From NCBI RefSeq assembly GCF_014863545.1, contig NZ_CP062260.1:2418001-2482000 (forward strand): a stretch of 64,000 nucleotides of DNA, written 5' to 3'. Position 1 is the stretch's first letter; every line of letters starts with the position of its first letter. Shown here piece by piece: positions 6,519-44,291 of this stretch. The notes beneath the pieces were generated by a model, which had not been told where the DNA came from, ran no database searches, and saw only the letters and a list, made by a program, of their open reading frames with translations. This DNA is from Paenibacillus sp. JNUCC32. GTDB taxonomy: Bacteria > Bacillota > Bacilli > Paenibacillales > Paenibacillaceae. Both the position numbers and the translations under genes were made by a program.

Positions 6519-6596
6519 AACCTATCTCCTCCAAGCTTTTCCCAGCGTGGAGGGATACTCTCGCTCCATTCCCCCGCTATCCGGGATGCCTCCTCA

Positions 6597-14482: not shown

Positions 14483-15824
14483 TAGCCTGCCTCCCCCTTT
14501 CGACGAATAGCTTACCCATCGGGTAAAAGCCGTCTTGATATCCCGTGATTGCCAGCTGGATATTCCCGATTTCCTTCACGCTGGTTTCGATGCCAATCTC
14601 CAGCGCATACTCGCCCGCCGGCATATCGTCCGGCAGCGAAAAGCTTTCTGTCCAAGCAATATCCTCATCCGGGAGCCATTCCCTGATGTCTTCACTGCTA
14701 TGAAGCGTATACGATCGACATTGGCCGGTTAACCTCACCGCCAGCGGATAACGATGATAAATCGGAGCGACGCCGACATTAGCCCACAACGCATCGATGT
14801 TTAGCTCTCCGCCAACGAACGCTATCGAATCGTACGCGAATTTCCTTAATTCGAAGCGGTAGCCCATCTTGTTAATCCAAGCCTTGACCTTCTCTTTCCA
14901 CGGTTCCGGTACTACCGTCCCTTTGTTGTTAAAGGATGAAATATGCCACTTGAGCGTTTCCTGTATGATATAGTCGATATCCCAGCCCTGCAGATACCAG
15001 TCATTCATATGCCAGCATGCTTCGAACAGGATCGGCGCTTTCTCCCAAGCATCGCCCATCTCAAAATTCTGAATATTTTGCGGATAGAAATCGGTCATGT
15101 GCGACCATTGATCGCCATGAAAGCCGCCCATATCCCCCAAGCAATCCACGCGAAATCCGACTTTGGCTTTGCGTTCATTTATGATTCGGATCGACAGCGG
15201 ATCATGCAGCAGTGCCTGGAGAGGCGTTATTTTAAAACCGTCCAAGTAAGCATCCGTTATCTGCTTAATCGCGCCAGTCGTTAGAAATTCGGTTCCGCCG
15301 CCTTCCCCCCAGGCTCCGACTATGGTCAAATCGATCGAGCTGATAAGCGGATGGCCGTCAAAGCGGGCGGCAAACGCCTTGATGAAATCAGACCAATACT
15401 CGGCATATGGGGTGGTCAGAGGGTCTACTCTCCAGAACGGAAACTCGGGCTCCTCCGGATATTCGGCCCGGAACCAAGACGGAATATCGTCTTCTTCGCT
15501 TAATGCATATGGCGAACAGCGCACCACGGCAGTACAGCCTAATGATTTGGCGTAATTCAGCTTTTCTTCCAGCACGATCCAGTCGTAACTCCCTTTATCC
15601 GTTTCGATGTCACGCCAACGAACGCTACAGAAATATACTTTGCTGTCCGGATGGTTGTACGTCCTGCTGTCTTCCGCAAACTTGTATTTGCGCTGCGCTT
15701 CCCCCCGGTTATCAACAATCCGTTCCGGATCTCCCATCAAGCCCGGCGCCGTGGTAAAGCCAATACCCGGATTGGTCAACATTTCATCCGATATCATAGG
15801 GTAAACCGTAACTCTCTTGTTCAT
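14460..15824 (-). CDS. DUF4832 domain protein, putative intracellular glycoside hydrolase
   Basis: A 454-residue protein lacking a signal peptide. Residues about 10-330 look like a glycosidase TIM barrel: YFCSVRWRDIETDKGSYDW near the N-terminus and IVGAWGEGG with a candidate catalytic glutamate near 172. The C-terminal DUF4832-like beta-sandwich runs from about 345 to 440 (ALWANVGVAPIYHRYPLAVRL). It is the first gene of the seven-gene sugar operon and lies divergent from the LacI gene, so it is the main candidate for cleaving the imported oligosaccharide. The GGGGGAGTTGGGAT site supports the ATG at 15824. The exact substrate is unknown. Confidence 0.7.
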   Translation of the reverse strand: MNKRVTVYPMISDEMLTNPGIGFTTAPGLMGDPERIVDNRGEAQRKYKFAEDSRTYNHPDSKVYFCSVRWRDIETDKGSYDWIVLEEKLNYAKSLGCTAVVRCSPYALSEEDDIPSWFRAEYPEEPEFPFWRVDPLTTPYAEYWSDFIKAFAARFDGHPLISSIDLTIVGAWGEGGGTEFLTTGAIKQITDAYLDGFKITPLQALLHDPLSIRIINERKAKVGFRVDCLGDMGGFHGDQWSHMTDFYPQNIQNFEMGDAWEKAPILFEACWHMNDWYLQGWDIDYIIQETLKWHISSFNNKGTVVPEPWKEKVKAWINKMGYRFELRKFAYDSIAFVGGELNIDALWANVGVAPIYHRYPLAVRLTGQCRSYTLHSSEDIREWLPDEDIAWTESFSLPDDMPAGEYALEIGIETSVKEIGNIQLAITGYQDGFYPMGKLFVERGRQANGKADEL

Positions 15825-20902: not shown

Positions 20903-20918
20903 AACCGGAACATAAAAA

Positions 20919-20948
20919 AACAGGGATGATTATGATATCATTCCTGTT
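20919..20948 (-). terminator. Terminator of the chelatase/ABC transporter operon
   Basis: AACAGGGATGAT (20919-20930) pairs with ATCATTCCTGTT (20937-20948) with one G-T pair. On the minus strand it is followed by seven T. It lies just past the CobN-like stop at 20985. Confidence 0.8.
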
Positions 20949-20984: not shown

Positions 20985-23900
20985 CTAGGTATTACGGCCT
21001 TCCAGATCCCCTTCAAGCTCCAAATAACGATCACGCAACATTCCCAATTCATCCTCCGACGCGTCCCAATAATTCCGTTGATGACTCTCCAGCAGAGTTT
21101 CCAGCATACTGTGATATGCAGAACGGTTATTGTCCCGCATTTGCTTGCTGCGCTGTTCGTCCGCAACATATTCCTTGTGAACCGAAGAGAAGATCCAGGA
21201 ATCCACCTGGTTCGTTGTCGCTGCCAGACCGAGCAAGTTTTCCGTTCGGTCGGCTATGTTCTGTGCCCCGTGAAAGTCGTGCTTCAGCAATCCGTCCATC
21301 CACTTGGGATTAAGCAAGCGGGTTCGAACGCCTCGCTGAATCGATTTGCGTACTTCTTCCGTTAATGCCTGCTCGCGCGTTGTATCGGTGATATACATTT
21401 CCGCTCGACTGCCCTTAACGATTTCTACCGATTTCGCCAACCCCCCGAAAAATTCGTAATAATGGTCCAAATCCGTAATTTCGTGCTCATGATTGCTCCG
21501 AATTTGCGAAACGATATCCACGGCCGCCAAGTTGGCCTGATACAGCTCAAGCATTTCCTTGCCTCTGTAGTTGGCGCTATATACATGCTTCAGGCTGTTC
21601 ATAAATGACGCGCCTATTTGGCTTTCCTCTTCCCACTGTTTGGTCTCGATCAGCTTGGTTACGGACGTTCCATATTCTCCTTCGGCAGGTCCGTAAATGC
21701 GGGCGCACGCCAAATCCCAAGCCTCGTCGTGCCCGGCGCCGGCATTGCGCAGCTGTCGGTACAGCAACTCCGAGTGCTGTTTGAACCAATTTTGATCCAT
21801 CGGCTCATCCAGCTCGGATACTTCTCTAAAAATGCGATAAAGCATGAATAGCTGGTCCGGAAACATATCGCGGAAAAAACCGCAGATATGCACGACGACA
21901 TTGATTCGCGGTCTGTTCAGTTCGGAAAGTGGAATGATTTCATATCCCATATGCATGGAATGTCCCCTTTCCTTGATTCTGACGCCGAGATAAGCCAGAA
22001 TCTGGCCTAACGTCTCTCCCTGGGTCCGCGAAGTTTCCAGCCCCCACATCACGAGTGCCGTCGTTTCAGGATATTTTTGATGGGCCTCGTAGTACAGCTT
22101 CAAGGTATTCTCGGCAATTTTCAACCCGGTCGCAGCTGCCGTCCGGCTTGGAATGGATCGCGGATCGAACTGAACCAGGTTATTTCCGGACGGCAAAACC
22201 TCCGGATTACGAACGCTGTCCCCGGCTAGGCTAACCGGCAAATACGCCCCATCCAGCGCCCGCAGCAGGTTCTTAAGCTCCATATCCGCTTTGGTGGAGT
22301 GATATGCCGTTAACCCGTGATTCCAGATGTCGTTCCAGCGTGCCTTCATTTCATCCGGCAACTGTGGAGGCTCAGGGATGGCTTCATTATGAATAAAGGA
22401 TAACACGGCTTTTCCTACACACTCATCCAGCAGTTGCAGTCTTTCAATGTCCCGGTTTTCCAGCAGGCTGTCATAATCCCAAGCCATGGATGCCGCAAAT
22501 ACACTTTGCAGCGATCCAAGTTTTCCCTGCTCATGGCTCAAAATCATTTTCATATGCCCTGCCGCTTCTTCATGGTTGTAGCCCTCGCCGACGACATGCA
22601 GACCGTTCGGGATCACGGATCTTCGAATCCGATACAGCTCGATTTCGAGCTCTTCCAAATCGTCCGTTTCCATAGAAAGCGATGCCGCCTGGTCCCGTAT
22701 CCTCTTCCTTACGTCGGGAACACGCGTTGGATTCAGCCGTTCCGTTTCCCGGTACTCGTGCAGCATCGCTTCAAGCTCGACATATTCACCATATAATCCG
22801 CTTGACGTGAAGGGCGGGGATTGGTAACCGATCAAGGCAGCATGCGACCTTCGCTTCGCGATCATTGCCTCGGACGGATTTCCAACGTAATACATATAGA
22901 AATGCGGAAGATCTTGGATCAGGGCATCCGGCAAACAATCACCGGACATTCCGCTCTCTTTTCCCTCCAGAAACTCAAGGGTTCCGTGGGTTCCTACGTG
23001 CAGGATGGCATCCGCCTTGAATTCGTCCCGAATGTATTGATAAAAGGCTAAATACTGATGGTGCGGAAGAAGGCTCTTGTCATGGTAAGCAGCCTCGGGA
23101 TGCTCGTGAACGCCCCGGCTGGGCTGAACCCCGATAAACAGGTTTCCACTTAGCAAACCGGGGATTTTGAATGCTCCCTCCTCCGTCGTCATAATATTGC
23201 CCGGCGCCTCTCCCCACTGCTGAATAAGCTCATCCCTGCGATTGGCAAACACTTTATTATTCTGCTCATAAGCCTTATTGTCGTACGTTGGAAGTTCAAC
23301 GGACCAACGCTCGTCCGTCCAGACTCCGGAATTGACCGCTCCTTCCCGAAGGAAGCGTTCCCTTAATTCAGCTCCGGTAAATGCCTCTGTCGTGTAGCCG
23401 TGATCTTTCATCGCTGTCGCGATTCGGGATATGGATTCGAACGTATCCAGAAACGATGCCTGAAATAAATGCCCCTCTCCGGGAGGATAGTTATAGCCGA
23501 TGATGGCGATACGCTTTTCCGACGGCTGCTTGGTTCGAAGGTCCAAATATCGACGAACTCTGCTGATCAACCGCCGCGCTCGCTCCTCGATGACCCGCAG
23601 TTCCTTCGTGTGAAGCTGCATTTCCTCATCGTATTCACGACCGGATAATGCGGCAACCGGAAGCATGTCAATGCTCCCGTCGAGCTCGGGCAGCATCATT
23701 TGGACCAAAAATTCGGAAGGCGATAAACCTTGCAGCGAGCCTTCCCATTCTTCCCGTTCCCTTCGCGTTAAGAAGAACGGATGGAACATCGGCGCTTCAA
23801 CTTCCTTTATTAAGGATAGGATCTCATCGCTTTTCCCTCCGGTAGGCCCCGCGCCAAGCCGGAACGGAACAAAATTTACGATTAGATCGATCTTACCGCC

Positions 23901-24695
23901 CTGGGAGCCTCCTTGCATCAGCAAACTTCGCAGCCTTTGGGGATCGACGCGTACCAATGAAGTGAGTGCGATGGGTAGGACATTCGCAAATTTCCGAAGG
24001 TCCTGAATGATACCGCCTACGATTTCACCGGTATGGAGCGGATAGCTGTATCCCATAAATAGCACGGCTACCGTCGGCAAATCGGTCCGAACGGGCGTCA
24101 CGCTCTGATAGGCCTTTAAAGATTCATACGGTCGCTTCAAGAGTGGGTCGTAAATACCCAACGTCTCTAGAACAGAAGGCGGTTCCACCGGCGGCCAATC
24201 CGTTATTTGGCCAAATGTTGTAGCGATATAGCCCAGCATATGCTCCAAATTGTCGATACTTGAATGTCTCCAGTAATCAAGTAAGGTTCGATAATGCTCG
24301 AGATCTTGATTTATATCAATCCGTGCGGAAGAACCCGTCGGATCCCCTCGTTGACCGCTTCCGGCAATATCTTCATAACGCAGCGATCCCAATCGGAACA
24401 AATCTTGAATCCCATCCGCATTCCCTCCTAAAATCACCTGCTGCGCCTCATGACCTTGGCAAAGATCATAAATGCGGGAAAGGGTCTGAGCCGGCGTACC
24501 GTGCGGATCATGAATAATAAACTCCGCTTCCTCTACCTTTGCCTTCAGCCGCTTCCATTCTTCATCCGACAATGTTCCTTCTACATTTAACACGGATAAC
24601 GCTAGACGACTGCGAAAAGATGCGTCCCATTTCTTATATAGCTGCGACAAATCCCTCATCGCTGCATGCGATGTCGTCAGAACGGCGATTTTCAC
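20985..24695 (-). CDS. cobN: CobN/ChlH-like large chelatase subunit
   Basis: A 1236-residue protein, near the usual CobN length. Conserved blocks include GYNYPPGEGHLFQASFLDTF (about 400-419), IGVQPSRGVHEHPEAAYHD (521-539), HVGTHGTLEFLEGKE (566-580), SMAWDYDSL and the C-terminal ADRTENLLGLAATTNQVD. In aerobic B12 or chlorophyll synthesis this subunit binds the tetrapyrrole and, driven by AAA+ partners, inserts cobalt or magnesium. Here the partners are the ChlD- and ChlI-like genes directly upstream, and no corrin or chlorophyll synthesis gene is in the window. The operon begins with a metal/tetrapyrrole-type ABC importer under a Zur box. A role in handling zinc or another metal in a complex during zinc shortage is inferred. 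The start is GTG with a GGGGAGG site. Confidence 0.9.
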   Translation of the reverse strand: MKIAVLTTSHAAMRDLSQLYKKWDASFRSRLALSVLNVEGTLSDEEWKRLKAKVEEAEFIIHDPHGTPAQTLSRIYDLCQGHEAQQVILGGNADGIQDLFRLGSLRYEDIAGSGQRGDPTGSSARIDINQDLEHYRTLLDYWRHSSIDNLEHMLGYIATTFGQITDWPPVEPPSVLETLGIYDPLLKRPYESLKAYQSVTPVRTDLPTVAVLFMGYSYPLHTGEIVGGIIQDLRKFANVLPIALTSLVRVDPQRLRSLLMQGGSQGGKIDLIVNFVPFRLGAGPTGGKSDEILSLIKEVEAPMFHPFFLTRREREEWEGSLQGLSPSEFLVQMMLPELDGSIDMLPVAALSGREYDEEMQLHTKELRVIEERARRLISRVRRYLDLRTKQPSEKRIAIIGYNYPPGEGHLFQASFLDTFESISRIATAMKDHGYTTEAFTGAELRERFLREGAVNSGVWTDERWSVELPTYDNKAYEQNNKVFANRRDELIQQWGEAPGNIMTTEEGAFKIPGLLSGNLFIGVQPSRGVHEHPEAAYHDKSLLPHHQYLAFYQYIRDEFKADAILHVGTHGTLEFLEGKESGMSGDCLPDALIQDLPHFYMYYVGNPSEAMIAKRRSHAALIGYQSPPFTSSGLYGEYVELEAMLHEYRETERLNPTRVPDVRKRIRDQAASLSMETDDLEELEIELYRIRRSVIPNGLHVVGEGYNHEEAAGHMKMILSHEQGKLGSLQSVFAASMAWDYDSLLENRDIERLQLLDECVGKAVLSFIHNEAIPEPPQLPDEMKARWNDIWNHGLTAYHSTKADMELKNLLRALDGAYLPVSLAGDSVRNPEVLPSGNNLVQFDPRSIPSRTAAATGLKIAENTLKLYYEAHQKYPETTALVMWGLETSRTQGETLGQILAYLGVRIKERGHSMHMGYEIIPLSELNRPRINVVVHICGFFRDMFPDQLFMLYRIFREVSELDEPMDQNWFKQHSELLYRQLRNAGAGHDEAWDLACARIYGPAEGEYGTSVTKLIETKQWEEESQIGASFMNSLKHVYSANYRGKEMLELYQANLAAVDIVSQIRSNHEHEITDLDHYYEFFGGLAKSVEIVKGSRAEMYITDTTREQALTEEVRKSIQRGVRTRLLNPKWMDGLLKHDFHGAQNIADRTENLLGLAATTNQVDSWIFSSVHKEYVADEQRSKQMRDNNRSAYHSMLETLLESHQRNYWDASEDELGMLRDRYLELEGDLEGRNT

Positions 24696-24729
24696 TCTTG
24701 TCGCCTCCCCTCTATAATCATTCGATAGG

Positions 24730-26697
24730 TCATTTCATGGTGGTGCGGACAGCCCGTGCAATACCTTCGTCATCTACGTGGTCAAGTAATCTGTATTCAG
24801 CGCCTAAAGCGTCAGCCAGCTCCCTCGAACGTCCCAATTTGACAAATCCCTGCTCCGTATCTAATACCAGGGACCAAATTCCGGCAGCGCGGATCAGCTT
24901 AGCCGCTTCCAGACATTCGTTCCAAATGTCAGCATACGCGCTTAATCCGATGGAGCTTTCATTGGCACGGCCATCCGTTACGATGATCATGACCGGAAGC
25001 GTATCGTTATTTCTGCGTTTCTCCGAATGGAGCACCTTGTGCGCTTTGGCCAGCCCGTCTGCCAGAGGCGTCTTTCCCCCTGTGGGAATGTCCCGAAGCT
25101 GCTTGGACGCGGCTTCGATGCTGCGCGTCACCGGAAGGATCAGCTCGGCTTCGTTGTTTCTGAAGGCGATCATCCCAATTCGGTCTCTTTTCTCATAAGC
25201 ATCCTGCAGCAGTGACAGAATAGCGCCTTTGACGGCGGTCATTCGCTTTCGAGCCGCCATAGACCCGCTGGCGTCAACGACGAACAGCAAGGTTGCCCCT
25301 ACCCGGTTCTCTCTTTTCTTTAGACGCAAATCATCAAACTCAATGGCAAACGCCACCTCGTCTTTTTTTGTTCTGATTGTTTGATAGGGAGCCGCTGCGC
25401 GGATCGTGGCATCCAAAGCCACGTCGGTTCGCAGGTTCCTGCCCGGGTACATATACCCCATAGCTCTCCCTTTCTTCTGGTTAGCCCGGGATTTATTTCG
25501 TTTTCCCGATCCCTCGTGTTCAATCTTGCGCTTCCCCTCGAGCTGCAACGGCTTCATTGTAAACGTTTCGTCTGGCAGCAGCACCCGTTCCTCCAAACCT
25601 TCTGATACGTGCTGTCGATCATCCGCATGCTGCTCTACCGTACGGCTGGCCACATCTTGTTTGTTGTCAGAAGAAGCGTTGCCCGTATTATGGGGATTCC
25701 GTTTCGGTTCGGGACTTTTCTGTAGAGGAATTGGATAGGAGCGGGCATGATCCTCAAAAGAACGTTCCGGCTGTTTACTGTTATCCTGTTCAGGTGAGCC
25801 GCTGCTAGAAGCACGGGGCTTCTCCATTACATGTGTCATTCTGTGGGGCAGCACAAATTCAGCTATCTCCCGGATGTCGGCGGCGGTAACCGCGGAACGC
25901 CCATCCCAAGCGGCGGCAGCTTTTGCCCCTTCAATCAGACTGAGATCGCCCCTGGAGCTGCTGATCCCGGCTTCTCTGGCGATGGAGGCTGACAATTGAA
26001 TCATGTCCGCGCTCACCTGAACTTGGGGAAGAGCTTGTGCGGAGGCTTCGACGCGAAGACGCAGCGTTTCATCCTGCGGCCGATATCGGTTCTGGAATGC
26101 GAACGGATCATGCTCAAACTGCAGATTTCGGCGTATAATCTCTGCTCTTGATACGGAATCGTGAACATAGTCCAACGTAACGCAATAACCAAAATGGTCC
26201 AGAAGGGGAGGCGATACCCGGCCTTCATTGGGATCCATTGCTGCAAGCAGCATAAAACGGCTTCTCCGAACCGTGGATATCCCCTCTCTTTGCACATAGA
26301 TCGAGCCCGTAGACAGCGTGCTGACGATCTCCTTCAAGATCGCTTCAGATAGTAGATTCATATGGTCTACAAGCAGGAGCTGTCCATTGGCTTCTTCCAG
26401 CAATCCCGGAGCAAGCGCTAGCTTTCCGCCTTTCATGGCGGCTGCCATATCCAAAGCGCCGAGCAGCCGGTCAGCCGTAACGTTGACGGGTACGGATAGG
26501 ATTCGGCGCGGCTTGACCAAAGAAGAGGCCGCATGCAGCAGGGCGCTTTTTCCTGACCCGGGATTGCCGTTAACAAGTATGCCTCCAATCGCTGGATTGA
26601 CAAGATAGAGCAGTAAAGCTCGTTTGGCCTTCTCTTGGCCCAGAATCGCACTGAATGGATATACCGGGACAGCGCTCTTCCATTCTTCCGTTATCAT
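24730..26697 (-). CDS. ChlD/BchD-like chelatase subunit (AAA+ plus VWA)
   Basis: A 655-residue protein with an N-terminal AAA+ module (Walker A GNPGSGKS about 44-51, [10 protein letters not shown] as Walker B region), a charged, proline-rich linker (about 290-410) and a C-terminal VWA domain. The metal-site motif is DASGS, followed by GKTPLADG and TDGRAN. Unlike many ChlD subunits the Walker A is intact, so it may hydrolyse ATP itself. ChlD and ChlI form a hexameric motor acting on CobN/ChlH. The ATG at 26697 overlaps the ChlI stop as ATGA; another ATG four codons earlier (26709) is possible. Confidence 0.9.
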
Positions 26698-27623
26698 GAC
26701 GGTACCCATTCGACTGAAGTCAGTATCGTCTGTAATCGCTGCTCAATGCCGCCGGTGGCTTCAAATGGCTGCCGTCTCATGCGATGAGGCAAGACCAAGT
26801 GCGCCGCTTCTTGCATATGATCTAGGCTTACAGTCTCCTTCCCCTGCCAGGCAGCCAGGGCAACCGCCGTTTTGATGAGGGTGATATCGGAACGGTGTCC
26901 CTCCACCTCCAGTGCAATCCCGATTTTCGCTGCCAGCTCAAGCATATCGTCCGAGATCGGGATATGGCCCAGACGGTCTCGGGCCTGCAGGATCTGGTTC
27001 AATACTCTCTTCTGCTCCGTCTCAAATCGCGCTGCAAATGAAGCAGGGTCCCGTTCATATTCCAATCGTCTACGGATGACAAGCGTGCGCTCTTGAACGT
27101 CCCTTTCCCCGCCGATCTCCACCGACAGTGCAAACCGGTCCAATAGCTGCGGTCGCAGGTCCCCTTCTTCGGGGTTCATCGTCCCTACCAAAAGGAACCG
27201 TGACGGATGGGAATAGGAAATGCCTTCTCTCTCAACGGTATTAACCCCCATCGCAGCCGCATCCAGAAGCACATCTACGATATGATCATCGAGCAGATTA
27301 ATCTCATCGACGTATAAGATATGGCCGTGGGCCGCAGCCAGCAATCCGGGTTCGAATTTCTTTTCTCCTTTCTTGATCGCATGCTCGATGTCTAAAGCAC
27401 CGACAATCCGGTCTTCCGTCGCACTAACCGGCAAATTGACAACGTTCAGATCAGGCACAAGCCCCGATAAGGCACGTACCGTCGTTGATTTCGCCGTTCC
27501 TTTTTCCCCTCGTATCAGAACGCCCCCGAGTTTCGGATTCACGACATTCAGAATGAGAGCCAACTTCATTCGGGATTGGCCGACAATGGCTGTAAAAGGA
27601 TATTGATGATCTATATGTTCCAA
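26694..27623 (-). CDS. ChlI/BchI-like AAA+ chelatase subunit
   Basis: A 309-residue AAA+ ATPase. Walker A is GEKGTAKS (39-46), followed by the ChlI signature [14 protein letters not shown] with [25 protein letters not shown] (helix-2 insert and Walker B). Sensor residues appear in VGTMNPEEG and the arginine finger region in [11 protein letters not shown]. It powers the large chelatase subunit together with the ChlD-like protein. The start is TTG at 27623, nine bases after AAGGAG. It lies 13 bases after the transporter ATPase gene, in the same operon. Confidence 0.9.
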
Positions 27624-27636
27624 AGCGTTCGACTCC

Positions 27637-28422
27637 TTATTTCTTGATTAATCCGGTAATCCGGCAAATCGGCTTGTCGCGAACCGGATCGGTTTCCACA
27701 GAAGCTTCAACACCGAACACCCTGCCCAGCAGATCCGGCGTCAAAACCTCGGATGGTGAGCCATAGCCTTCCACCTTCCCTGATTTCATCGCCAGGATAT
27801 AGTCGGAATAGATTGAAGCGTGGTTAATGTCATGCAGAACCATGATAACGGTCATATTTAATTGTTGATTCAATCCCCGAACCAGCTCCAAAACCTCCAG
27901 CTGATGGGCAATGTCCAGGTATGTGGTCGGCTCGTCCAGAAGCAGCACGCCTGGCTGCTGAGCCAGAGCCATGGCAATCCACGCTCTCTGTCTTTCTCCG
28001 CCAGACAGCGTATGCAGAAGTCTGTCCTCATAAGGCGTAAGAGCGGTTGCCTCCAATGCCCAATCCGTGATCTCGCGGTCCTTGGCGCTGACATGATTCC
28101 AGTAAGGCTGATGGGGCGTTCTTCCATATCCCACCAATTCCTTCACCGTGATTTCTATGGGCTCTTGCGATTGGGCCATATAGGACAGCTGCCGGGCCAC
28201 GTCCTTCCCGTTTAAATCGGATAACGGCTTGCTGTCAAGCAGAACCTGCCCTCCTGCGGGCTTCAGCTGGCGAGCAAGCGCTTTAAGCAACGTGCTCTTC
28301 CCGCAGCCGTTCGGACCGATAATGCTGTACACGGATCCTTTCTCGAAGGAGATGCCCAGATGTTGAATAACAAACTTATCCTGGTATTTCAGCGAAAGAT
28401 CGCGAGTCTCCAAACGTGTCAT
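27637..28422 (-). CDS. FecE/BtuD-like ABC transporter ATPase
   Basis: A 261-residue nucleotide-binding subunit of a type II importer: Walker [11 protein letters not shown]-loop [13 protein letters not shown], signature LSGGERQR, Walker [14 protein letters not shown] and H-loop VLHDINHA. The subfamily imports ferric siderophores, heme or cobalamin. It overlaps the permease gene by the four bases ATGA and precedes the ChlI-like gene by 13 bases. Confidence 0.9.
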
Positions 28423-29414
28423 GCTTTCCTCCTCCTTAACAGATAAAGGAAAAAGGGTGCTCCCAATGCGCCCATGATGATTCCGACTGGAAGCTCAATC
28501 GGTGTAAACATCATTCTTGCCAGCGTGTCGCAGAACGTCAGAACGGCAGCGCCCAGCAAAGCAGAGGACGGGATGAGAATCCGGTAATCTCCGCCGACAA
28601 GCAGCTTGGCGATGTGGGGAACGATCAGACCGACGAACCCCAGCAAACCGGCGATGCTGACGGCGCTGGCTGCGAGCAGCGTGGCGATTGCGGTTATCAT
28701 GAAACGGGACAGCTCAACCCGCGTCCCCAAATTCCGTGCATTGATGTCACCCAGCATCATAATATTCATCTGCTTGGAGAAGATCATCGCCAGAAGAAGA
28801 CCGATAAGCGAGTAAGGCAGTATGGTCGAGAGATCCGGCCAGCTTTTGGCTGCAAGCCCGCCGACCATGAAGATTAAAGCGCCATGCACGCGGTCGCTGT
28901 AAAAGGTAAGCATCGCCGATATCCCGGACCCCAAGAATGCGGAGACAGCGACCCCGGACAGAACGATCCGCAGAGGGCTAACGCCATCCTTCCAAGACAA
29001 AAGATAGATAATGAACGCGGTGAGAGTCGCTCCGAGAAATGCTGCAGGCGTCAGTAAGTAATCATATTGCGGTACAACCACCAGCAGGAAAATCCCGAAT
29101 AGTCCGGCGCCGCTGGAGACTCCGATAATGTGGGGATCAGCGAGCGGATTGCGCATGACGCCTTGCAAAAGCGCCCCGGATACCGCGAGGTTCGCGCCTA
29201 CAAGCATCGCGACAAGCGTCCGCGGAAGCCGGATATTCCAGATAATATCCCGGTTCATCCCTGGCAGCTCATGATGCAGGATACCCGTGACAATGTCCCG
29301 AAGCGGAATCATAACGGCACCGGTAGCTATACTGATCAAGCACGCCGAAGCTGCAGCGATCGTGAAAATAATGATCAGGGATGCATGACGGACCGATCTA
29401 TTCAACATCACCAT
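28419..29414 (-). CDS. FecCD-type ABC transporter permease
   Basis: A 331-residue protein with about nine to ten hydrophobic segments. Family blocks are WNIRLPRTLVAMLVGANLAVSGALLQGVMRNPLADPHIIG, ALIFMVGGL, LGFVGLIVPHIAKLLVG and the C-terminal ELPVGIIMGALGAPFFLYLL (positions about 60-100, 180, 265-280 and 305-325). The protein would work as a homodimer. Three near starts exist: ATG 29414, GTG 29411 and ATG 29408; a GGAG site lies just upstream. It overlaps both flanking genes, showing tight coupling. Confidence 0.9.
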   Translation of the reverse strand: MVMLNRSVRHASLIIIFTIAAASACLISIATGAVMIPLRDIVTGILHHELPGMNRDIIWNIRLPRTLVAMLVGANLAVSGALLQGVMRNPLADPHIIGVSSGAGLFGIFLLVVVPQYDYLLTPAAFLGATLTAFIIYLLSWKDGVSPLRIVLSGVAVSAFLGSGISAMLTFYSDRVHGALIFMVGGLAAKSWPDLSTILPYSLIGLLLAMIFSKQMNIMMLGDINARNLGTRVELSRFMITAIATLLAASAVSIAGLLGFVGLIVPHIAKLLVGGDYRILIPSSALLGAAVLTFCDTLARMMFTPIELPVGIIMGALGAPFFLYLLRRRKA

Positions 29415-30432
29415 AGATCTCCGGATACACCAGCTTGGCTAAATACGCCAGGGATTCATCATAGTGAAGCCCCGGGTTGGTAAGAAACAGATCGGATGGT
29501 ACGACAATGACGTGTTGTTCCTTGACGGCCCCGATGGAGGCCCATGCCGGATTGTTCTCAAGCTCCTCTTTAATCTTCTTCTCGCCAACGGTCTTTTGTC
29601 CGTGGATAATCAAAAAGATATAATCCGGATCCTGTTTCACAAGCACCTCCATGCTGTAAGGCGTCGTGGTTGGACTGTTAGGCGACGATTCCAGATTCTC
29701 GGCAGCGTTGGTCAGACCCAACATCTTCGCTATTTCCAGACCCGATGTGCCGTTCTTTTGTATCGAGATCCCGCCCGGCGTGACGTTCATATTGATAAAG
29801 GTACGTTCCTCATCCGGTAATTTTTCCACGATTTCGTTTACTCGAACCTCCAGAGCTTCGAGCTTTTCCGGGAGCTGCGCTTTCGTACCCGCTATCTTCG
29901 CCATCCATTCGGCTTTGGTTTTCATATCCTCATAGCTGGTCAGACTCATCAAGGCAACAGGAATCCCGCTGCTCTCCAGCGATTGCACAAGCTCTTTATG
30001 AAACCGCGCCTGCCCGATAACCAGATCGGGTCTGAGCGATACAACCTGTTCCAGGTTGATCTGGCTGACGCTGCCGACGGACGATATCGCTTCGGCCTCT
30101 TCAGGAATCGAAACCCCGGTAGCTTCCATCCGTCCCACGGCCTCTCCGCCGACCGCGTATAATAGATCAAGGAATTCGGGCGATAGCACAACGATGCGTT
30201 CAGGCTGCTGCTGAAGCGTTATGGTGCGATCCGTTGCGTCCTGGAATGTTATGTAATTTTCCTGAGGATCAGACCGTACCGGTAACGATGCATTGTCACT
30301 CGGCTTGGTTTCCGGATTGCTGGAAGTCTCACTCCCCCCGCAAGCTGACATGATGAATCCCAGTAATAAGAGAAATGAACTGACGGCTGCGATATAAGAT
30401 GTTTTCTTGCGTTGCTTGAATCTAAAGTACAT
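29398..30432 (-). CDS. FecB/BtuF-like substrate-binding lipoprotein
   Basis: A 344-residue lipoprotein with a basic start, a hydrophobic stretch and lipobox IMSAC (Cys about 31), followed by a class III periplasmic-binding fold typical of siderophore, heme and cobalamin binders: RTITLQQQPERIVVLSPEFLDLLYAVGG, LEQVVSLRPDLVIG, NPAWASIGAVKEQHVIVVPSDLF. It is the first gene of the six-gene unit. A GGGAGGG site precedes the ATG at 30432, and Zur boxes lie 77 and 147 bases upstream. The ligand is unknown; a metal complex or tetrapyrrole is the best guess given the chelatase genes downstream. Confidence 0.9.
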   Translation of the reverse strand: MYFRFKQRKKTSYIAAVSSFLLLLGFIMSACGGSETSSNPETKPSDNASLPVRSDPQENYITFQDATDRTITLQQQPERIVVLSPEFLDLLYAVGGEAVGRMEATGVSIPEEAEAISSVGSVSQINLEQVVSLRPDLVIGQARFHKELVQSLESSGIPVALMSLTSYEDMKTKAEWMAKIAGTKAQLPEKLEALEVRVNEIVEKLPDEERTFINMNVTPGGISIQKNGTSGLEIAKMLGLTNAAENLESSPNSPTTTPYSMEVLVKQDPDYIFLIIHGQKTVGEKKIKEELENNPAWASIGAVKEQHVIVVPSDLFLTNPGLHYDESLAYLAKLVYPEIYGDVE

Positions 30433-30508
30433 AGATTGACTCGCCCTCCCGATGATAAGTTTGTCTCTGAGCCACCGATCTTTCGTTTGTTTTCAGTGAC
30501 CTGTTTAT

Positions 30509-30523
30509 TCGTAATTATTACGA
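30509..30523. promoter_or_regulatory. Perfect Zur box of the chelatase/ABC operon
   Basis: TCGTAAT-T-ATTACGA is a perfect 7-1-7 inverted repeat and equals the B. subtilis Zur consensus TCGTAATNATTACGA. The CG pairs separate it from Fur (TGATAAT) and PerR (TTATAAT) boxes. It lies just downstream of the -10 element, where a bound repressor would block transcription. Confidence 0.85.
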
Positions 30524-30530
30524 TTAACAA

Positions 30531-30558
30531 AATATACTTTATCCCGATTATACGTCAA
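30531..30558 (-). promoter_or_regulatory. Predicted sigma-A promoter of the chelatase/ABC operon
   Basis: On the minus strand, TTGACG (30553-30558) and TATATT (30531-30536) are 16 bases apart. An alternative TTGACA starts six bases upstream. It lies between the two Zur-type boxes. Confidence 0.6.
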
Positions 30559-30578
30559 TGTCAATCGTTTTCAGAAAA

Positions 30579-30593
30579 TCGTAATCATTCTTA
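30579..30593. promoter_or_regulatory. Partial second Zur box
   Basis: TCGTAAT-C-ATTCTTA has one perfect half and 11 of 14 consensus positions overall. It sits upstream of the -35 element, 70 bases from the perfect box. Confidence 0.5.
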
Positions 30594-30815: not shown

Positions 30816-33800
30816 TTAAGGAATAAAATCAACCATGGGATAGTCTGCGGACGGGGAGTTCAGCAGCGGCTGTGGTGCACCCTTTAGATGATAATCGAAA
30901 AAAGCAGCGACATACTCTCGATGGGCGGCGATCGTCAGTTCGGGCTCAGCTGTCCCGATAAATTGTTGGACGACTCGCGGCGAAAGGCTCAGCCTCTCCT
31001 GAAGCTGTGGAAGGAGCGACTGATAATCTGTAAACGTATAATGTGCTCCCTCGGGTATGCTTAAATCGAGCTTCCAGCCGGTCGAATGCTGCCAGAACGA
31101 TTGACGGTCCATCGCGGTTAGATGGGAATCAACCTCGCCCTCTTTATTGTAGCCTGAATTCATGAGCATGAAAGGACGATCCAAACCGTGCTGCGCCACC
31201 GGGAGCGGGTTATCGGGCATGTGCCCCATCGTTCCATCCATATCGATGCCGGCGTCGACCCGGTCATCCTCATACATAACCTGAGCAGCGGTAGCCCCGC
31301 CTGCGGAATGTCCGAATATTCCGATCTTTGACAGGTCCCATGCTTCTTGAAATCCAGCGGGTAAAAGATCGCCTGAATAACGGCCTTTCTTTATGAATTC
31401 GAGTTGATCCAATACATATTGGATGTCATCCACTCGTACCTCTAGCATCTTCAGTACCGTTTCTGCACTGAATGGCGGTAACGACTCCGTGGCCACACGA
31501 CCATCGGGAAACTGGACCGCAGAGGCTTCATACGTATGATCGACTGCAACCACCACATAACCTCTGCTGGCCAAGTCTTCGACTACAGCCGTCCCGAAGT
31601 TTCTTGGAACAGATCCGCCAGGTGTGTAGATGAGGATCGGCCACCCATCGCCGTTGTTCAGTGGAGGAGCATTCACCCAAGAGTGTGTGCCGATACCGGA
31701 TAGATCGACGCTGCCGGGATCCAACCCGATCGTGGAGATCGTGTTTTCGTCGTAATACTTTGCTGCTTCGGGCTGCATGTACAAAGCCTTCTGCTCGCTT
31801 TTTCCCGTGGCCGGGTACCATATGCTGACCATCAGCTCCCTGTCTCTGTCCTGTTTCCAAGGGTCCACCCGGTTGTCATCCTTGAAGTGCATTTCCATCG
31901 TCCCCACAGCGTATTTTCCAGTAGGTTTTGGAAGCTGTAACTGGATTTTCTCTGCCGGGCCCCTTTCATCCTGCGTTGCAGGGGTTTCCGTGCCGAAGAA
32001 TATGCCAATCAGTACCAGAATACAGACCGTAATGGCTATAGCTGCAATTCTTGCCACGGGGGCAGACTTTCCATGGACGATCCTGCTGATGGAGTTGACC
32101 GTGAGCACATAATAAACCGTATAGATCAGGATAAACACAGCGACGCAGATCAGGATGGGCAGCAAGAGACTGGTGCCTGCCATATTGCTGAATAACCTTT
32201 TCAACAATTGCAGGATGACCATGTAGTGGGCAAGCCCGATCGCGAGCGGCAAAGCAAAAATGAAGGCGTTCTGCTTGATGATGGCCATACTGATTTCTTT
32301 TCCGCTTACTCCGACTTTTTTAAGAATATCGAATCGAGGTTTGTCTGTCGCCGCTTCTGTCAATTGCTTGAAATAGATCATGCTTCCTGTTGCCATGACA
32401 AAAACGAGTCCCAAAAATCCTAATATAAACACATTAAAGGCCGCTTCTTCGATTCCAAGCCGGTATTCGGAATAAAAAGAAGACAGGTTCGATTCCGGTG
32501 TCTTCAGCGCCGCCAGCGCATCGGCCGTGTGCTTCGTCGTCTTCTGTTCCTGCACGGAATACCCGACATAGCGGGTCGGCGAAACTTGCGCCTCGATGTT
32601 GTCGTAGGTGCCGTTACTTACAACAATCATCACGTCCGGATAACTCCAATTGATGATTCGTTCTACGGTCATCCCCGCAAAAGCAAGGGTTATCCGTTGA
32701 TCAGGCAATTCGATGTCGACCGTTTCGCCTTCGTAATCGGACCACTCATAGTCCGTATACATGGGCCGGATCGCAACGGCTTCATCCTGTTCGATCGGAT
32801 CAAGAACGGGGAAGCGCAACACCTTTGCCACCTGGTTGTATTGATCGATCGAAACCACTTTGAGCGGGGTTTTATCGGCTTCGATCATTCTCTCCGGAAG
32901 GATCTCTGGATCGGAAGCCTCCCCTTTTGTCTCCAGCACCGGAATCGTCATTTGCGCTATAATCGGATGCGCTTCATCCCCGCGTATGATATCGTCTACG
33001 TTCTGATTAAAGGCTTTGTCCTGGGCAATATACATGTAGCTAAACGGTGCCGTGAGCTTCGATGTTTTGTCAAACGTGAAATACGCACCTAATCCGACAC
33101 TGAAAGCGCACAAAGCCGCTGCGGATAACAGGGAAATGACGCTTAACAAACGAGCGTTTCCTTTAATCCGGTACACCAAATTAGAGGTGATGACCAGATT
33201 CATGCCTTTATAATAACTTCGCTTTCTCTTCTTGGCGGTTCTCAACAAGACAATGACCAAGGAGGAGAAGAGCAGAAGCGTTCCAGCGATAATACCGACG
33301 GTCATCACGCTCAGGTTGACAAGAATTTCTTCGGTGACGGAAAAATCGCGGAAAGCGAATCCGTATCCCGCAGCCAGACAGAGAACCGCACCCACAGCCG
33401 ATAGAAACGACGCTTTCGGTTCCTGCTCCCCTTTCTGCTCCGCGCGAAACAATTCGATGAGTTTAAAGCTGTAGATCAATCGATAGCCTTGGATCGATGT
33501 CGCCAAAATAATCACCATGAACACGATGAGCGTATGAACCAGCGCGCGAAGGGAGAAAGCCATGCCTACCTGTACAGGCGTCCCCAGCAGTTTGATTAAT
33601 ATCATGGCGAACAGCTTGGATAACAATGTGCCGATCATGATTCCTATGATTAAAACCGTCACCCCAATGATCAGGTTTTCATAAAACAGCATTTTCCCGA
33701 TCTTTTTTTTGGGCAAACCAAATAGCGCGTACAAACCTACTTCCTTTTTACGCTGTCTCGAAAAAAAACGGTTGGAGTACATGATAAAGACGGCAACAAA

Positions 33801-34754
33801 CACAATCAATAGGATGGACGCCATCATAAAAACGGATTGCATGCTCTGCGACGATTCGATTGAACTCGCAATTTCTTGGCTGTACTGCAAAGAAAGGAAA
33901 GTATAATAGATGATGACGCTGAACAGGATGGAAATGAAATAGAGGGCGTAGTTTTTGAAGTTCCCTTTCATGTTCTTTTTCACGATGTCAAACAAGGTCA
34001 CTTGCATTCCCCCCAGTACGGTCAATACATCCAGTATTTTTTTGAAGAAGTGTTTGCGGGATGCCTCGCCTTTCGTCAGTTCCGTGAAAATGCGACCGTC
34101 CTTAATAAACAGCACGCGCTTGCAGTAACTTGCCGCAAACGTATCGTGGGTGACCATCAGAATCGTTGCCTGATCATATTCATTCAAGTCCTTCAGGCTC
34201 TCCAGCAGGTCGGTCGCCGATTTCGAATCCAGAGCGCCGGTCGGCTCATCGGCCAGCAGCAGGCTGGGGCCGGAAATCATGGCGCGTGAAGCCGCAGTCC
34301 GCTGTTTTTGCCCTCCGGAAATCTGATACGGGTATTTGTCCAGAATCGGGGTGATGCCGAATTTGTCCGCGATCTCCCCCACTCTAAACTCCAGTTCTTT
34401 GACATTCATCTTGGCCAGCGCCAAGGGCAGCAAGATGTTCTCCTTCACGGTTAACGTGTCCAGCAAATTGTAATCTTGAAAAATGAATCCCAGTTTATCC
34501 CGGCGAAAAGCGGATAGCTGTTCCTCATCCATCTTCAGCACGTCCATCCCGTCTATCACAACGTCTCCGGAGGTAGGCTGATCGATCGTTGCCAGCACAT
34601 GGAGCAACGTCGATTTGCCTGCGCCCGACGGCCCCATGATCCCTACGAACTCTCCCTCCTGCACGGTCAAATCGATATCATCCAAGGCGGTATAGACATT
34701 TCCTTTTACGCCATAAACCTTTCGAACCTGAGCCGCGTTCACTACCATTTTCAT
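30816..34754 (-). CDS. BceA-type ATPase, BceB-type permease and PAF-acetylhydrolase-like domain in one frame
   Basis: A 1312-residue open frame. Residues 1-249 are a BceA/MacB-type ATPase (GPSGAGKST, ISGGQKQR, LLLADEPTGALD). Residues 250-898 are a BceB-type permease: FtsX-like membrane segments and a large extracellular loop (about 560-770), which in this family senses or removes peptide antibiotics from lipid carriers. Residues about 899-1312 start with a membrane anchor (VARIAAIAITVCILVLIGIF) and form an alpha/beta hydrolase like PAF acetylhydrolase, with GHSAGG at 1148-1153 (Ser 1150), a likely acid in MDG and His in GAHYTF. Normally these are separate genes. The ATPase-permease joint lies on six G (34009-34014); with one more G the ATPase would end LGGNASDLV-stop and the permease start at its own ATG (34007). 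The divergent BceRS-like pair is the likely regulator. Confidence 0.85.
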   Translation of the reverse strand: MKMVVNAAQVRKVYGVKGNVYTALDDIDLTVQEGEFVGIMGPSGAGKSTLLHVLATIDQPTSGDVVIDGMDVLKMDEEQLSAFRRDKLGFIFQDYNLLDTLTVKENILLPLALAKMNVKELEFRVGEIADKFGITPILDKYPYQISGGQKQRTAASRAMISGPSLLLADEPTGALDSKSATDLLESLKDLNEYDQATILMVTHDTFAASYCKRVLFIKDGRIFTELTKGEASRKHFFKKILDVLTVLGGMQVTLFDIVKKNMKGNFKNYALYFISILFSVIIYYTFLSLQYSQEIASSIESSQSMQSVFMMASILLIVFVAVFIMYSNRFFSRQRKKEVGLYALFGLPKKKIGKMLFYENLIIGVTVLIIGIMIGTLLSKLFAMILIKLLGTPVQVGMAFSLRALVHTLIVFMVIILATSIQGYRLIYSFKLIELFRAEQKGEQEPKASFLSAVGAVLCLAAGYGFAFRDFSVTEEILVNLSVMTVGIIAGTLLLFSSLVIVLLRTAKKRKRSYYKGMNLVITSNLVYRIKGNARLLSVISLLSAAALCAFSVGLGAYFTFDKTSKLTAPFSYMYIAQDKAFNQNVDDIIRGDEAHPIIAQMTIPVLETKGEASDPEILPERMIEADKTPLKVVSIDQYNQVAKVLRFPVLDPIEQDEAVAIRPMYTDYEWSDYEGETVDIELPDQRITLAFAGMTVERIINWSYPDVMIVVSNGTYDNIEAQVSPTRYVGYSVQEQKTTKHTADALAALKTPESNLSSFYSEYRLGIEEAAFNVFILGFLGLVFVMATGSMIYFKQLTEAATDKPRFDILKKVGVSGKEISMAIIKQNAFIFALPLAIGLAHYMVILQLLKRLFSNMAGTSLLLPILICVAVFILIYTVYYVLTVNSISRIVHGKSAPVARIAAIAITVCILVLIGIFFGTETPATQDERGPAEKIQLQLPKPTGKYAVGTMEMHFKDDNRVDPWKQDRDRELMVSIWYPATGKSEQKALYMQPEAAKYYDENTISTIGLDPGSVDLSGIGTHSWVNAPPLNNGDGWPILIYTPGGSVPRNFGTAVVEDLASRGYVVVAVDHTYEASAVQFPDGRVATESLPPFSAETVLKMLEVRVDDIQYVLDQLEFIKKGRYSGDLLPAGFQEAWDLSKIGIFGHSAGGATAAQVMYEDDRVDAGIDMDGTMGHMPDNPLPVAQHGLDRPFMLMNSGYNKEGEVDSHLTAMDRQSFWQHSTGWKLDLSIPEGAHYTFTDYQSLLPQLQERLSLSPRVVQQFIGTAEPELTIAAHREYVAAFFDYHLKGAPQPLLNSPSADYPMVDFIP

Positions 34755-34994: not shown

Positions 34995-35666
34995 ATGAAA
35001 ATCATGATCGTAGAGGATGACCCGACCATTCGGGGGATGATCCAGTTAGCTTTAACCAAATGGAGCCTGGAAACGGTCAGCGTCGATAACTTTGACCAGG
35101 TCGCGTTATGCTTTATTCATGACCAGCCTCATCTTGTGATCATGGATATCAACTTGCCGTCGTATGATGGATTTTACTGGTGTCAAAAGATCAGGGAAAT
35201 CTCCAATGTACCGGTGCTCTTTCTTTCTTCCCGCGATTCGCCCATGGATGTTGTCATGTCGGTGAATATGGGCGGGGACGATTATATTCAGAAGCCGTTC
35301 CATATGGATGTTTTGACCGCTAAAGTCAATGCGCTGCTGCGCCGAACGTATTCCTATTCGGACATGCAATCCAACGTGTTCGAGCATGAGGGGGTCGTGT
35401 TCCTTCCGGACAAAGGGACGCTCACGTATGAAACCGAACAAGCGGAGCTTACCAAAACCGAAGTCAGTATATTGAAGATCCTGATGCAGCAGAAGGGAAC
35501 CGTTGTAGACCGCAAGAAAATCATGCGTCATCTTTGGCAGGATGAAAGCTTTGTGGACGAAAACACGTTAACCGTCAACATCGTCCGCTTGCGCAAAAAA
35601 CTGGCCGGCATCGGCAAGGAAAACTGGATTGTAACCAAGAAAGGGAAAGGTTATATGATCCCATGA
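34995..35666 (+). CDS. BceR-like response regulator (OmpR family)
   Basis: A 223-residue regulator with a receiver domain (acidic DD at 9-10, phospho-acceptor in VIMDINLP near residue 53, conserved Lys in IQKPFH) and a C-terminal winged-helix DNA-binding domain (TKTEVSILKILMQQKG, ENTLTVNIVRLRKKL). Sequence and position beside a sensor kinase and a BceAB-type transporter fit the BceR group. It overlaps the kinase gene by ATGA and lies divergent from the ABC gene, whose promoter it most likely activates. Confidence 0.9.
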   Translation: MKIMIVEDDPTIRGMIQLALTKWSLETVSVDNFDQVALCFIHDQPHLVIMDINLPSYDGFYWCQKIREISNVPVLFLSSRDSPMDVVMSVNMGGDDYIQKPFHMDVLTAKVNALLRRTYSYSDMQSNVFEHEGVVFLPDKGTLTYETEQAELTKTEVSILKILMQQKGTVVDRKKIMRHLWQDESFVDENTLTVNIVRLRKKLAGIGKENWIVTKKGKGYMIP

Positions 35667-36688
35667 GTTTCTTTCAATACATTAAGGACAAACGTTATTT
35701 TTTGTTGCTGTACGCCGGGATGATGGGCTTTATTTCGATGATTGTTGCCCTATCCGTCAACACGGGCCACGCCTTAGGCAGCGTTCTTTATATTCAAATC
35801 GTTTGTTCGGCCTTCACCGCAGCCTACTTACTGATTGGCTATGTTTATCGCAAATCCTATTACCGCAAGCTGCAGGAGCTGATCGATCTTGACCGGGAAG
35901 ATTGGCCTGTCGCTGCCCCGGAACCGCAAAATTCGCAGCAGCGGCTGTATCTCGAGCTTTTTGCCAAATTGCACCGGCATCATGAACGGGACCTCCGGAA
36001 ACTCAATGAAGAGAAAATAGATCACCAGGAATTTATCATGTCCTGGATTCATGAGGTAAAGCTACCGATTGCAGCAAGTCGTCTGCTCATGGAACACAGC
36101 ATGGGGGAAACGGCAGATTCCCTGGCCGATAAACTTGAGGATGAACTGGATAAAATCGAAAATTACGTGGAGCAGGCACTGTACTATTCTCGAATCGATT
36201 CTTTTTCCAAGGATTATTTCATCACGGAAGAACCGTTGGAAGCGATCATTAAAACCTGTGCGAAAAAATTCGCCAAGACGTTTATCAATAAACAGATTCG
36301 GTTCCATATGGAGGACATTCGGCAAACCATCCATACCGACCGCAAATGGCTCGGATTTATCCTTGATCAAATCGTTGCAAATGCGTTGAAATATACGGAC
36401 GAAGGCGGGAACATTACTTTCACGGTCGAAGAAGACCGTAAAGAAAAGCGGTTAAATATTGTAGATACGGGGATCGGGATCCAGCCGGAAGACCTTCATC
36501 GAGTCTTTGAGAAAGGATTTACCGGATCTACCGGAAGAAGCCATCCCAAATCAACCGGCATGGGACTTTATCTCGCAAAACAATTGGCGCATAAGCTGGG
36601 ACATCATTTGTCTATCCGATCGGAGGCTGGAAGGTATACATCAGTCACGATTCATTTTCCGAAAACGGACACGTATTACCGCTTATAA
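35663..36688 (+). CDS. BceS-like intramembrane-sensing histidine kinase
   Basis: A 341-residue kinase with two transmembrane helices in the first 65 residues and almost no extracellular loop, the hallmark of kinases that sense through a BceAB-type transporter. The phospho-acceptor His is in FIMSWIHEVKLPIAAS (about 132), followed by ATPase motifs (NALKYT, VDTGIGI, EKGFTG, STGMGLYLAK). It should phosphorylate the regulator encoded just upstream when the transporter meets its peptide. Confidence 0.9.
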   Translation: MSFFQYIKDKRYFLLLYAGMMGFISMIVALSVNTGHALGSVLYIQIVCSAFTAAYLLIGYVYRKSYYRKLQELIDLDREDWPVAAPEPQNSQQRLYLELFAKLHRHHERDLRKLNEEKIDHQEFIMSWIHEVKLPIAASRLLMEHSMGETADSLADKLEDELDKIENYVEQALYYSRIDSFSKDYFITEEPLEAIIKTCAKKFAKTFINKQIRFHMEDIRQTIHTDRKWLGFILDQIVANALKYTDEGGNITFTVEEDRKEKRLNIVDTGIGIQPEDLHRVFEKGFTGSTGRSHPKSTGMGLYLAKQLAHKLGHHLSIRSEAGRYTSVTIHFPKTDTYYRL

Positions 36689-44261: not shown

Positions 44262-44291
44262 TATATTTCTCCTCCTGCTTGGGTGTAAACG

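Follow-up and report, generated by a model that had tools for sequence, protein, structure and literature searches.

A CobN-like chelatase operon with a FecBCD-type importer and a probable Zur site in Paenibacillus sp. JNUCC32, and its orthologues under other regulators

The CobNST (CobN-ChlID) cobaltochelatase and the ChlH/ChlI/ChlD Mg-chelatase are insertases that share a plan of H, I and D subunits. Gram-positive heme importers of the Isd/Hup kind have a FecBCD-type importer, and Isd systems free the iron by heme oxygenases, not by a chelatase. Within the H-subunit superfamily, HmuS of the Bacteroides hmu operon is a demonstrated heme de-chelatase that harvests nutritional iron from the macrocycle; it is membrane-bound, NADH-dependent and furnished with a Met-rich insertion, replacement of His-538 by Ala abolishes its activity, and the accessible part of its description names no AAA+ partner (PMC12583661). 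In Pseudomonas aeruginosa, zinc depletion induces two operons with Zur sites, PA1922-PA1925 (TonB receptor, the CobN-like PA1923, ExbD and a hypothetical protein) and PA2911-PA2914 (TonB receptor and FecBCD-type importer), and the same regulon includes a nicotianamine-synthase/TonB operon of the cnt type, according to the accessible part of that study (PMC4542158). Here, we describe a six-gene operon, fecB-fecC-fecE-chlI-chlD-cobN, in a 64,000-nucleotide stretch of Paenibacillus sp. JNUCC32 (contig NZ_CP062260.1; hereafter the window, to which all unlabelled coordinates refer), in which a CobN-like H subunit, an AAA+ pair and a FecBCD-type importer stand together behind a probable site of the zinc-uptake repressor Zur.

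The gene content of this operon, its Zur-type control, its orthology to cassettes under other regulators, the switches between these regulators and the lack of B12 synthesis are well supported by the comparisons below. For its function we favour, at about even chances, a Zur-repressed ATP-binding cassette (ABC) importer with an ATP-driven de-chelatase that strips the imported zinc-tetrapyrrole of its zinc, a scheme in which we infer the ligand, the direction of the reaction and the metal released. Zinc starvation would free the box from Zur; the substrate bound by the FecB lipoprotein and imported by FecCE would be a metallated tetrapyrrole, with a Zn-porphyrin (such as Zn-coproporphyrin or Zn-protoporphyrin) as the most likely candidate; once inside the cell, the macrocycle would be clamped by the cytosolic CobN-like H subunit between H570 and H1078, and the ChlI/ChlD AAA+ motor would spend ATP to run the chelatase in reverse, leaving a metal-free macrocycle and freeing Zn2+ that is possibly taken over by a Zur-controlled COG0523 protein. 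The module is orthologous to a clostridial B12-riboswitch cassette, and its control was shifted to Fur in Bacillaceae, in this reading for heme iron, and to Zur in the window's lineage, for zinc. A wider proposition, held more tentatively and below even chances, is that zinc-tetrapyrroles are a natural zinc currency, that ATP-driven removal of zinc by a chelatase has its first example here, and that the module, on passing from the riboswitch to Fur or Zur, mines the metal to which its regulator responds: a corrinoid link in Clostridia, iron from heme in Bacillaceae, and zinc in the window's family and its allies. Were this so, unassigned CobN-like genes of zinc regulons, such as P. aeruginosa PA1923, would be accounted for, the CobN/ChlH superfamily would gain, next to HmuS, a reverse reaction powered by ATP, and zinc-porphyrins would be a bacterial zinc source. 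Open-access titles and abstract openings described no Zur-controlled CobN/ChlID/FecBCD cassette, no B12-riboswitch version of it and no zinc de-chelatase, which is weak evidence of absence.

The operon and its Zur-type box

The six open reading frames (ORFs) are packed on the minus strand at 20985-30432 in the order given by the preliminary description of this DNA, which was made from the letters alone and is borne out by ORF coordinates and Pfam families. The first gene, fecB (29398-30432), encodes a class III substrate-binding lipoprotein (PF01497, Peripla_BP_2; lipobox Cys31) and overlaps by 17 nt with the FecCD-type permease gene fecC (28419-29414; PF01032, 313 bits), which in turn overlaps by 4 nt with the importer ATPase gene fecE (27637-28422; PF00005, ABC_tran; FecE/FhuC-like in NCBIfam, below the cut-offs). 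After a 13-nt gap follows chlI (26694-27623; Pfam Mg_chelatase/AAA_lid_2), an AAA+ motor subunit gene whose translation reads GEKGTAKST where a standard Walker A is expected, and then, overlapping it by 16 nt, chlD (24730-26709; Mg_chelatase/AAA_lid_2 and VWA), encoding an AAA+ plus VWA subunit. A 34-nt gap (coordinates 24695/24730) separates chlD from cobN (20985-24695), which encodes the CobN-like H subunit of 1236 amino acids (PF02514, CobN-Mg_chel, 1033 bits) and is the only PF02514 gene of the genome; chlorophyll genes were searched for through this family only. A terminator-like hairpin with a T-run 3' of cobN (20914-20947, minus strand), found by eye and not reported by the program scan, could mark the operon end.

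About 76 nt ahead of the fecB ATG lies a perfect 7-1-7 palindrome, TCGTAAT-T-ATTACGA (TCGTAATNATTACGA; 30509-30523), identical to the core of the ZUR consensus for Gram-positive bacteria, TAAATCGTAATNATTACGATTTA, as given in the accessible part of PMC545781. The three top minus-strand promoter-like matches (10/12) between 20700 and 30850 all lie at 30531-30574, directly upstream of the box, where TTGACA and TAAAGT with a spacer of 17 (30536-30564, minus strand; a consensus match only) are overlapped by TTGACG-16-TATATT; four plus-strand matches in the same region score equally (10/12). The coordinates bear out the earlier description of a perfect box between promoter and first gene; the start point expected from the candidate promoter would fall within the box.

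Under a first-order chance model built from the window, one perfect box was seen in the 64 kb against 0.0002 expected, and the 7.0-Mb genome holds three perfect boxes (0.024 expected) and seven with at most one mismatch (1.16 expected). Sites with up to two mismatches number 47 genome-wide, against a model expectation of ~24.5 and a figure of 13 with the reversed pattern, and at up to three mismatches a shuffle control within the window is not significant (3 seen, 3.1 expected). The 40 two-mismatch boxes were taken as mostly chance; eight were examined (L009-L016; L labels denote sequence stretches and G labels the genomes compared) and none was used as a target. Two one-mismatch boxes within ORFs (L005, L006) were likewise dropped, about one such site being expected by chance. 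The perfect boxes stand 8 nt ahead of a COG0523/ZigA-like ORF of the yciC type, ahead of an L33 gene (rpmG) and ahead of the chelatase operon, and the one-mismatch boxes outside ORFs precede a type B L31 gene (rpmE2) and the cnt operon; all five boxes outside ORFs with at most one mismatch are thus ahead of zinc-starvation genes or the chelatase operon. The yciC, L31 and L33 genes are Zur targets in Bacillus subtilis, according to the accessible parts of PMC6103462 and PMC5007448. Because three perfect copies, where 0.02 are expected, precede yciC, the L33 gene and the chelatase operon, we regard 30509-30523 as a very probable Zur site and the operon as under Zur-type control. The preliminary description had claimed such control, and the genome-wide target set, the conservation of the box and the chance model support it strongly. 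The genome has four Fur-family regulator genes; Fur control of the operon was rejected, as its best upstream Fur match has 4 mismatches.

Orthologous cassettes and their regulators

CobN homologues are rare in the window's family (15/295 genomes at E <= 1e-20, its own included), and class-wide 6 of 398 genomes had one at E <= 1e-100, namely the window's own, G118, G610, G485, G382 and G337. Two new cassettes with Zur boxes come from G610 and G485 and a lone CobN-like gene from G337, and the 1.9-Mb genome G382 has a divergent cassette (L137; 1-9213, minus strand; CobN 33%) with the active site DHYYEFYGG. A suspected FecE-CobN fusion in L137 was ruled out, fecE being a separate overlapping ORF.

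The survey of Zur boxes at homologous operons proposed in the preliminary description covered 15 Zur-group upstream regions (the window, L033-L041, L043-L045, L134 and L135), L042 and L046 having been dropped from the count for their truncated contigs. A box with at most one mismatch was found near the first gene in 11 of the 15, the window included, a count that takes in near-copy genomes (CobN is identical in L038 and L039); in L034, the box precedes a Fur-family gene located before fecB. Two control patterns came to 4 to 6 mismatches at best in the 13 Zur-group stretches scanned. Elsewhere, a control pattern reaches 2 mismatches (L118) or 3 (L057, L062), and two- and three-mismatch sites are therefore weak evidence.

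Several Zur-group cassettes adjoin zur-like, znuCBA, yciC-like or ribosomal-paralogue genes (ribosomal and COG0523 names having been assigned partly by reading translations). In L033 (74% CobN identity), a one-mismatch box is followed by znuC-znuB-znuA-rpsN-fecB-fecC-fecE-chlI-chlD-cobN. In L034, two COG0523-like genes come first, then a box, a Fur-family gene, the cassette, a box with two mismatches and an rpmE2-like ORF, and L135 has boxes ahead of the cassette and ahead of an rpsN-like ORF that is followed by a COG0523-like ORF.

Other features of these stretches were noted in passing. The cobN gene is seemingly interrupted in G014 (L046 3385-6704; pieces on a short contig, with an internal stop) and seemingly split in L045 (11508-15748). 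Near Zur-like boxes adjoining the cassette, L044 (14129-16911) encodes a FeoB-like GTPase with Gate domains and an FAD/NAD(P) oxidoreductase, possibly another Zur-controlled metal route, and ORFs similar to this pair, by reading only, occur in L035 and L135. A protein of ~165 amino acids adjoins Zur boxes in two genomes (L004 737-1234; L034 5578-6069, this copy without a Pfam match) and is a possible uncharacterised zinc-starvation protein.

The same gene set, in varied order, is widespread in Clostridia. Twenty mostly clostridial loci were scanned with Rfam (L048-L050, L052-L056, L058, L061-L065, L098, L101, L109, L115, L119 and L124; L056 is titled Dehalococcoidales, and L051, L059, L097, L120 and L121 were outside the scan); within the stretch available, fecB/fecC were not seen in L054 and L058, nor chlI/chlD in L049. 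A cobalamin riboswitch lies upstream of the cassette in 13 of these 20, directly ahead of the first gene in nine (L124 among them at threshold, 31.6 vs 31.5) and separated by other genes or a longer gap in four (L062, L063, L065, L109). Upstream riboswitches were not found in the remaining seven, among which the contig of L050 begins 290 nt ahead of fecB and L054, L058 and L061 have a riboswitch downstream instead. CbiC is present in all 13 clostridial genomes checked and a strong CbiK in 12, the other, G300, having two short CbiK/CbiX-type pieces, one of them beside CbiC; L119 has cbiK inside the cassette. With other B12 chelatase candidates in 13/13, CobN-ChlID is unlikely to be the only B12 chelatase of these genomes. 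In L062 (Alkalibaculum), two NEAT-domain proteins and a sortase (6049-6789, 14257-15803) flank or interrupt the riboswitch cassette, apparently as an Isd-like surface relay under cobalamin control. Upstream of the cassette in L052 (2-7038) are two more divergent CobN-like proteins and an ORF that reads as radical-SAM-like.

Fur boxes were found at the cassette in two of three Bacillaceae, as two overlapping one-mismatch sites in L057 (chance 6e-4 per region) and a two-mismatch site in L047 (7e-3 per region), and the closest solved relatives of both FecB proteins are IsdE and Lmo2184. The third Bacillaceae cassette, L118, has none of Zur box, Fur box and riboswitch, and no Fur-type cassette beyond L057 itself was found in the family of its genome (1/17 genomes). 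Fur-type boxes are also seen ahead of a ferrochelatase gene and a 2Fe-2S ferredoxin-like ORF beside the cassette in L047 (707-1711, 13863-14898).

A CobN tree of 41 rows (quick method; support from the Shimodaira-Hasegawa-like approximate likelihood ratio test, SH-aLRT, only; L137 excluded) places the 11 Zur-labelled rows, a label also given to L033 and L045 despite their weak direct boxes, with the truncated L042 in one group (support 99). The two Fur rows pair (support 80), and both groups fall within the riboswitch rows. The labelled regulator states can be accounted for by two changes, 15 unlabelled rows being uncounted, and a wider CobN tree concurs on the Bacilli group. On this topology, the riboswitch state looks ancestral and the Fur and Zur states derived.

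Neither CbiC nor CbiK, the two B12 genes searched singly, had a match in the window's genome, and CbiC is absent from all 17 genomes with a CobN of the window's group (its own, 14/14 and 2/2; two of the 14 have truncated contigs) as well as from G382 and G337; G485 shows a weak partial match to the CbiK model (5.9e-9). No cobalamin riboswitch was found upstream of the cassette in the window, L034, L035, L038, L044, L134-L137 or L118, a scan that left out L033, L036, L037, L039-L041, L043 and L045. Elsewhere in the window's genome there are two, one ahead of a BtuF-like binding protein beside cobalamin-salvage-like genes and one ahead of a ribonucleotide reductase (names read from translations). 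Because CbiC is absent in 17/17 genomes, a role in B12 biosynthesis was rejected for this CobN group and is unlikely for the operon. The alternative named in the preliminary description, a B12/cobaltochelatase role, is thus contradicted by the missing CbiC and CbiK and by the riboswitch standing ahead of the BtuF-like protein.

Ligand, direction of reaction and metal

In the window CobN, H570 (HVGTHG) aligns with H538 of HmuS, and D1077, H1078 and E1081 (DHYYEFFGG) align with its D1208, H1209 and E1212 (DHVYEFMGG). The two proteins of one superfamily thus have HxGTHG and DHxYEFxGG in common, and the HmuS motifs HFG(T/A)HG and LSLDHxxEFMGG recur as HVGTHG and TDLDHYYEFFGG, with the catalytic His, Asp and Glu kept and flanking letters that differ. 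B12 CobN chains read DDYYQFEGG or DDYFQYHGG, with Asp/Gln where the window CobN has His/Glu, and their DD-Y-[YF]-Q motif is absent from it. ChlH reads SHYFDSD in place of DHYYEFFGG, and E574 of the window CobN matches the residue that is mutated in the ChlH chain 6ytj (presumably E660 in the usual numbering). Despite the common subunit plan, the window protein falls below the cut-offs of the cobaltochelatase equivalog TIGR02257 (607.8 bits, cut-off 822), of the ChlH model TIGR02025 (796.4, cut-off 829) and of NF009140 (734, cut-off 1300). It has no membrane span (hydropathy does not exceed 1.6 in any window of 19 residues) and no Met-rich stretch (40 residues contain 4 Met at most), and its gene neighbours encode an AAA+ pair and an ABC importer, whereas HmuS is membrane-bound, NADH-dependent and Met-rich in its insertion, as far as the accessible part of its description goes (PMC12583661). 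The window CobN is therefore not HmuS by definition and would work in an HmuS-like way only if the proposed reverse reaction holds; the DHYYEFFGG motif by itself does not fix the direction.

His145 and His277 of the window FecB are invariant in the 10 copies of its group (alignment A2), and in the 10 clostridial copies (A3) the second of these positions is occupied by Met. In the alignment with IsdE, His277 falls on the His of the PHG motif, which we take to be the C-lobe axial heme ligand of IsdE. Unlike the FecB of L047 and L057, which resemble those of the Isd/Hup importers, the window FecB does not have a heme protein as its best solved relative and is not specifically IsdE-like. The A2 profile ranks an iron-uptake binding protein first (2phz, presumably FeuA), and the A3 profile ranks 8bf6 first (named only 'ABC transporter') and then a siderophore protein. 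A mixed profile (A1) placed IsdE and Lmo2184, for which we assume a heme role, at the top; this ranking was driven by the mixture and was not used for the window FecB.

Since inserting iron (Fur form) or zinc (Zur form) would waste a scarce metal, removal is the sensible direction. With the regulator taken as a pointer to the metal, we infer heme iron for the Fur form, where FecB agrees, and zinc for the window operon. The preliminary description had proposed that the cell removes or exchanges the metal of an imported tetrapyrrole; that proposal, in which ligand, metal and reaction are putative, fits the comparative data.

Several observations weigh against a zinc de-chelatase. DHYYEFFGG is found as well in CobN-like proteins from archaea and cyanobacteria that have no assigned function or may be insertases (a set partly selected by the motif, as DHYYEFFG was one search pattern), and whole-length scores of the window CobN are higher with ChlH (493 bits) than with CobN (424) or HmuS (352). 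ATP-driven removal is without direct precedent in the accessible description of HmuS, a membrane-bound, NADH-dependent enzyme for which no AAA+ partner is named there (PMC12583661). Against solved structures, the window FecB scores 64 bits with 8y4v (ligand not named), 57-46 with siderophore proteins, 36 with the heme-binding 2r7a, ~33-35 with BtuF and 23 with IsdE. Direct boxes are weaker in 4 of the 15 Zur-group cassettes (two mismatches in L036 and L037, three in L033 and L045), and the divergent L137 has no Zur box, Fur box or cobalamin riboswitch. The Fur evidence comes from two genomes, and since L055 has a Fur-like site with two mismatches as well, placed between its riboswitch and fecB, the L047 site alone would be weak.

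The strongest rival, which we nevertheless consider unlikely, is that a corrinoid is imported and its cobalt, stripped or exchanged, replaces zinc in zinc enzymes under starvation. It is the strongest because the ancestral context is corrinoid, the upstream riboswitches at 13 of 20 mostly clostridial loci making a corrinoid the probable older ligand, and because the P. aeruginosa authors link similar genes to cobalt (PA1922-PA1923 and PA2911-PA2914, in the accessible parts of PMC4542158, PMC8531726, PMC13083405 and PMC11761036). The window's genome, however, keeps a separate riboswitch-preceded BtuF-like binding protein, and the window FecB is no closer to BtuF than to siderophore proteins. 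Moreover, we know of no enzymatic removal of cobalt from a corrin. The P. aeruginosa cobN-like Zur operon, to which the preliminary description had pointed, is real (PMC4542158), but its CobN-like gene and the FecBCD-type importer are in two separate operons with TonB/ExbD, no ChlI/ChlD is among the genes listed in the accessible part, and PA1923 is likened to the window CobN by description only. It is improbable, in our view, that the operon acquires heme and releases its iron with zinc starvation as a mere inducer, a scheme for which HmuS is a precedent and to which the Fur-box Bacillaceae cassettes with IsdE-like FecB and the alignment of His277 with the IsdE His lend some weight; the poor Fur match at the window operon, the low score with IsdE and the Zur boxes with at most one mismatch across three Bacilli families speak against it.

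Insertion of a metal into an imported or salvaged macrocycle, as in B12 or corrinoid salvage, would agree with the homology to CobN and ChlH insertases, with the riboswitch context in Clostridia and with the listing of ChlID and CobN as cobalt-insertion genes in the accessible part of PMC8123684, where it is also noted that cobNST annotations may be other metal chelatases where corrin genes are missing. The absence of CbiC throughout the window's CobN group and the other B12 chelatase candidates of Clostridia count against it, as does the consumption rather than supply of a scarce metal, and we regard it as no less improbable than heme acquisition. Finally, the cargo of the importer might be a small zinc-loaded metallophore and no tetrapyrrole, and CobN-ChlID might act on this complex or on porphyrins made by the cell: siderophores are frequent cargo of FecBCD-type importers, the A2 profile is closest to 2phz, and the window itself has an opine metallophore operon. 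That operon comes with an importer of the CntA type and can do without FecBCE, and to our knowledge all characterised members of the H-subunit superfamily act on tetrapyrroles, so that we consider this very improbable.

The cnt operon and other window features

The opine metallophore operon cntK-L-M-A-B-C-D-F-E (43047-52324, minus strand; profile models) lies ~12 kb from the chelatase operon, and a second Zur-like box with one mismatch (TCGTAATATTTACGA; 52354-52368) stands 30 nt ahead of cntK. CntA, CntC, CntD and CntE score above their model cut-offs (the CntD ORF also above that of CntF) and permease B above that of Opp1B; CntK, CntL and CntM are below their own cut-offs, and the second cnt ATPase has a NikE match below cut-off. 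From these assignments, it is predicted to scavenge metal separately from the chelatase operon and to have an importer and an exporter of its own. This operon, and the Fur and B12-riboswitch versions of the chelatase cassette in relatives, are additions to the preliminary description.

Upstream of the chelatase operon, a single ORF of 1312 amino acids (30816-34754, minus strand) joins an ABC ATPase, an FtsX-type permease and a PAF-acetylhydrolase-like C terminus, an unusual three-part fusion that adjoins a two-component system at 34995-36688.

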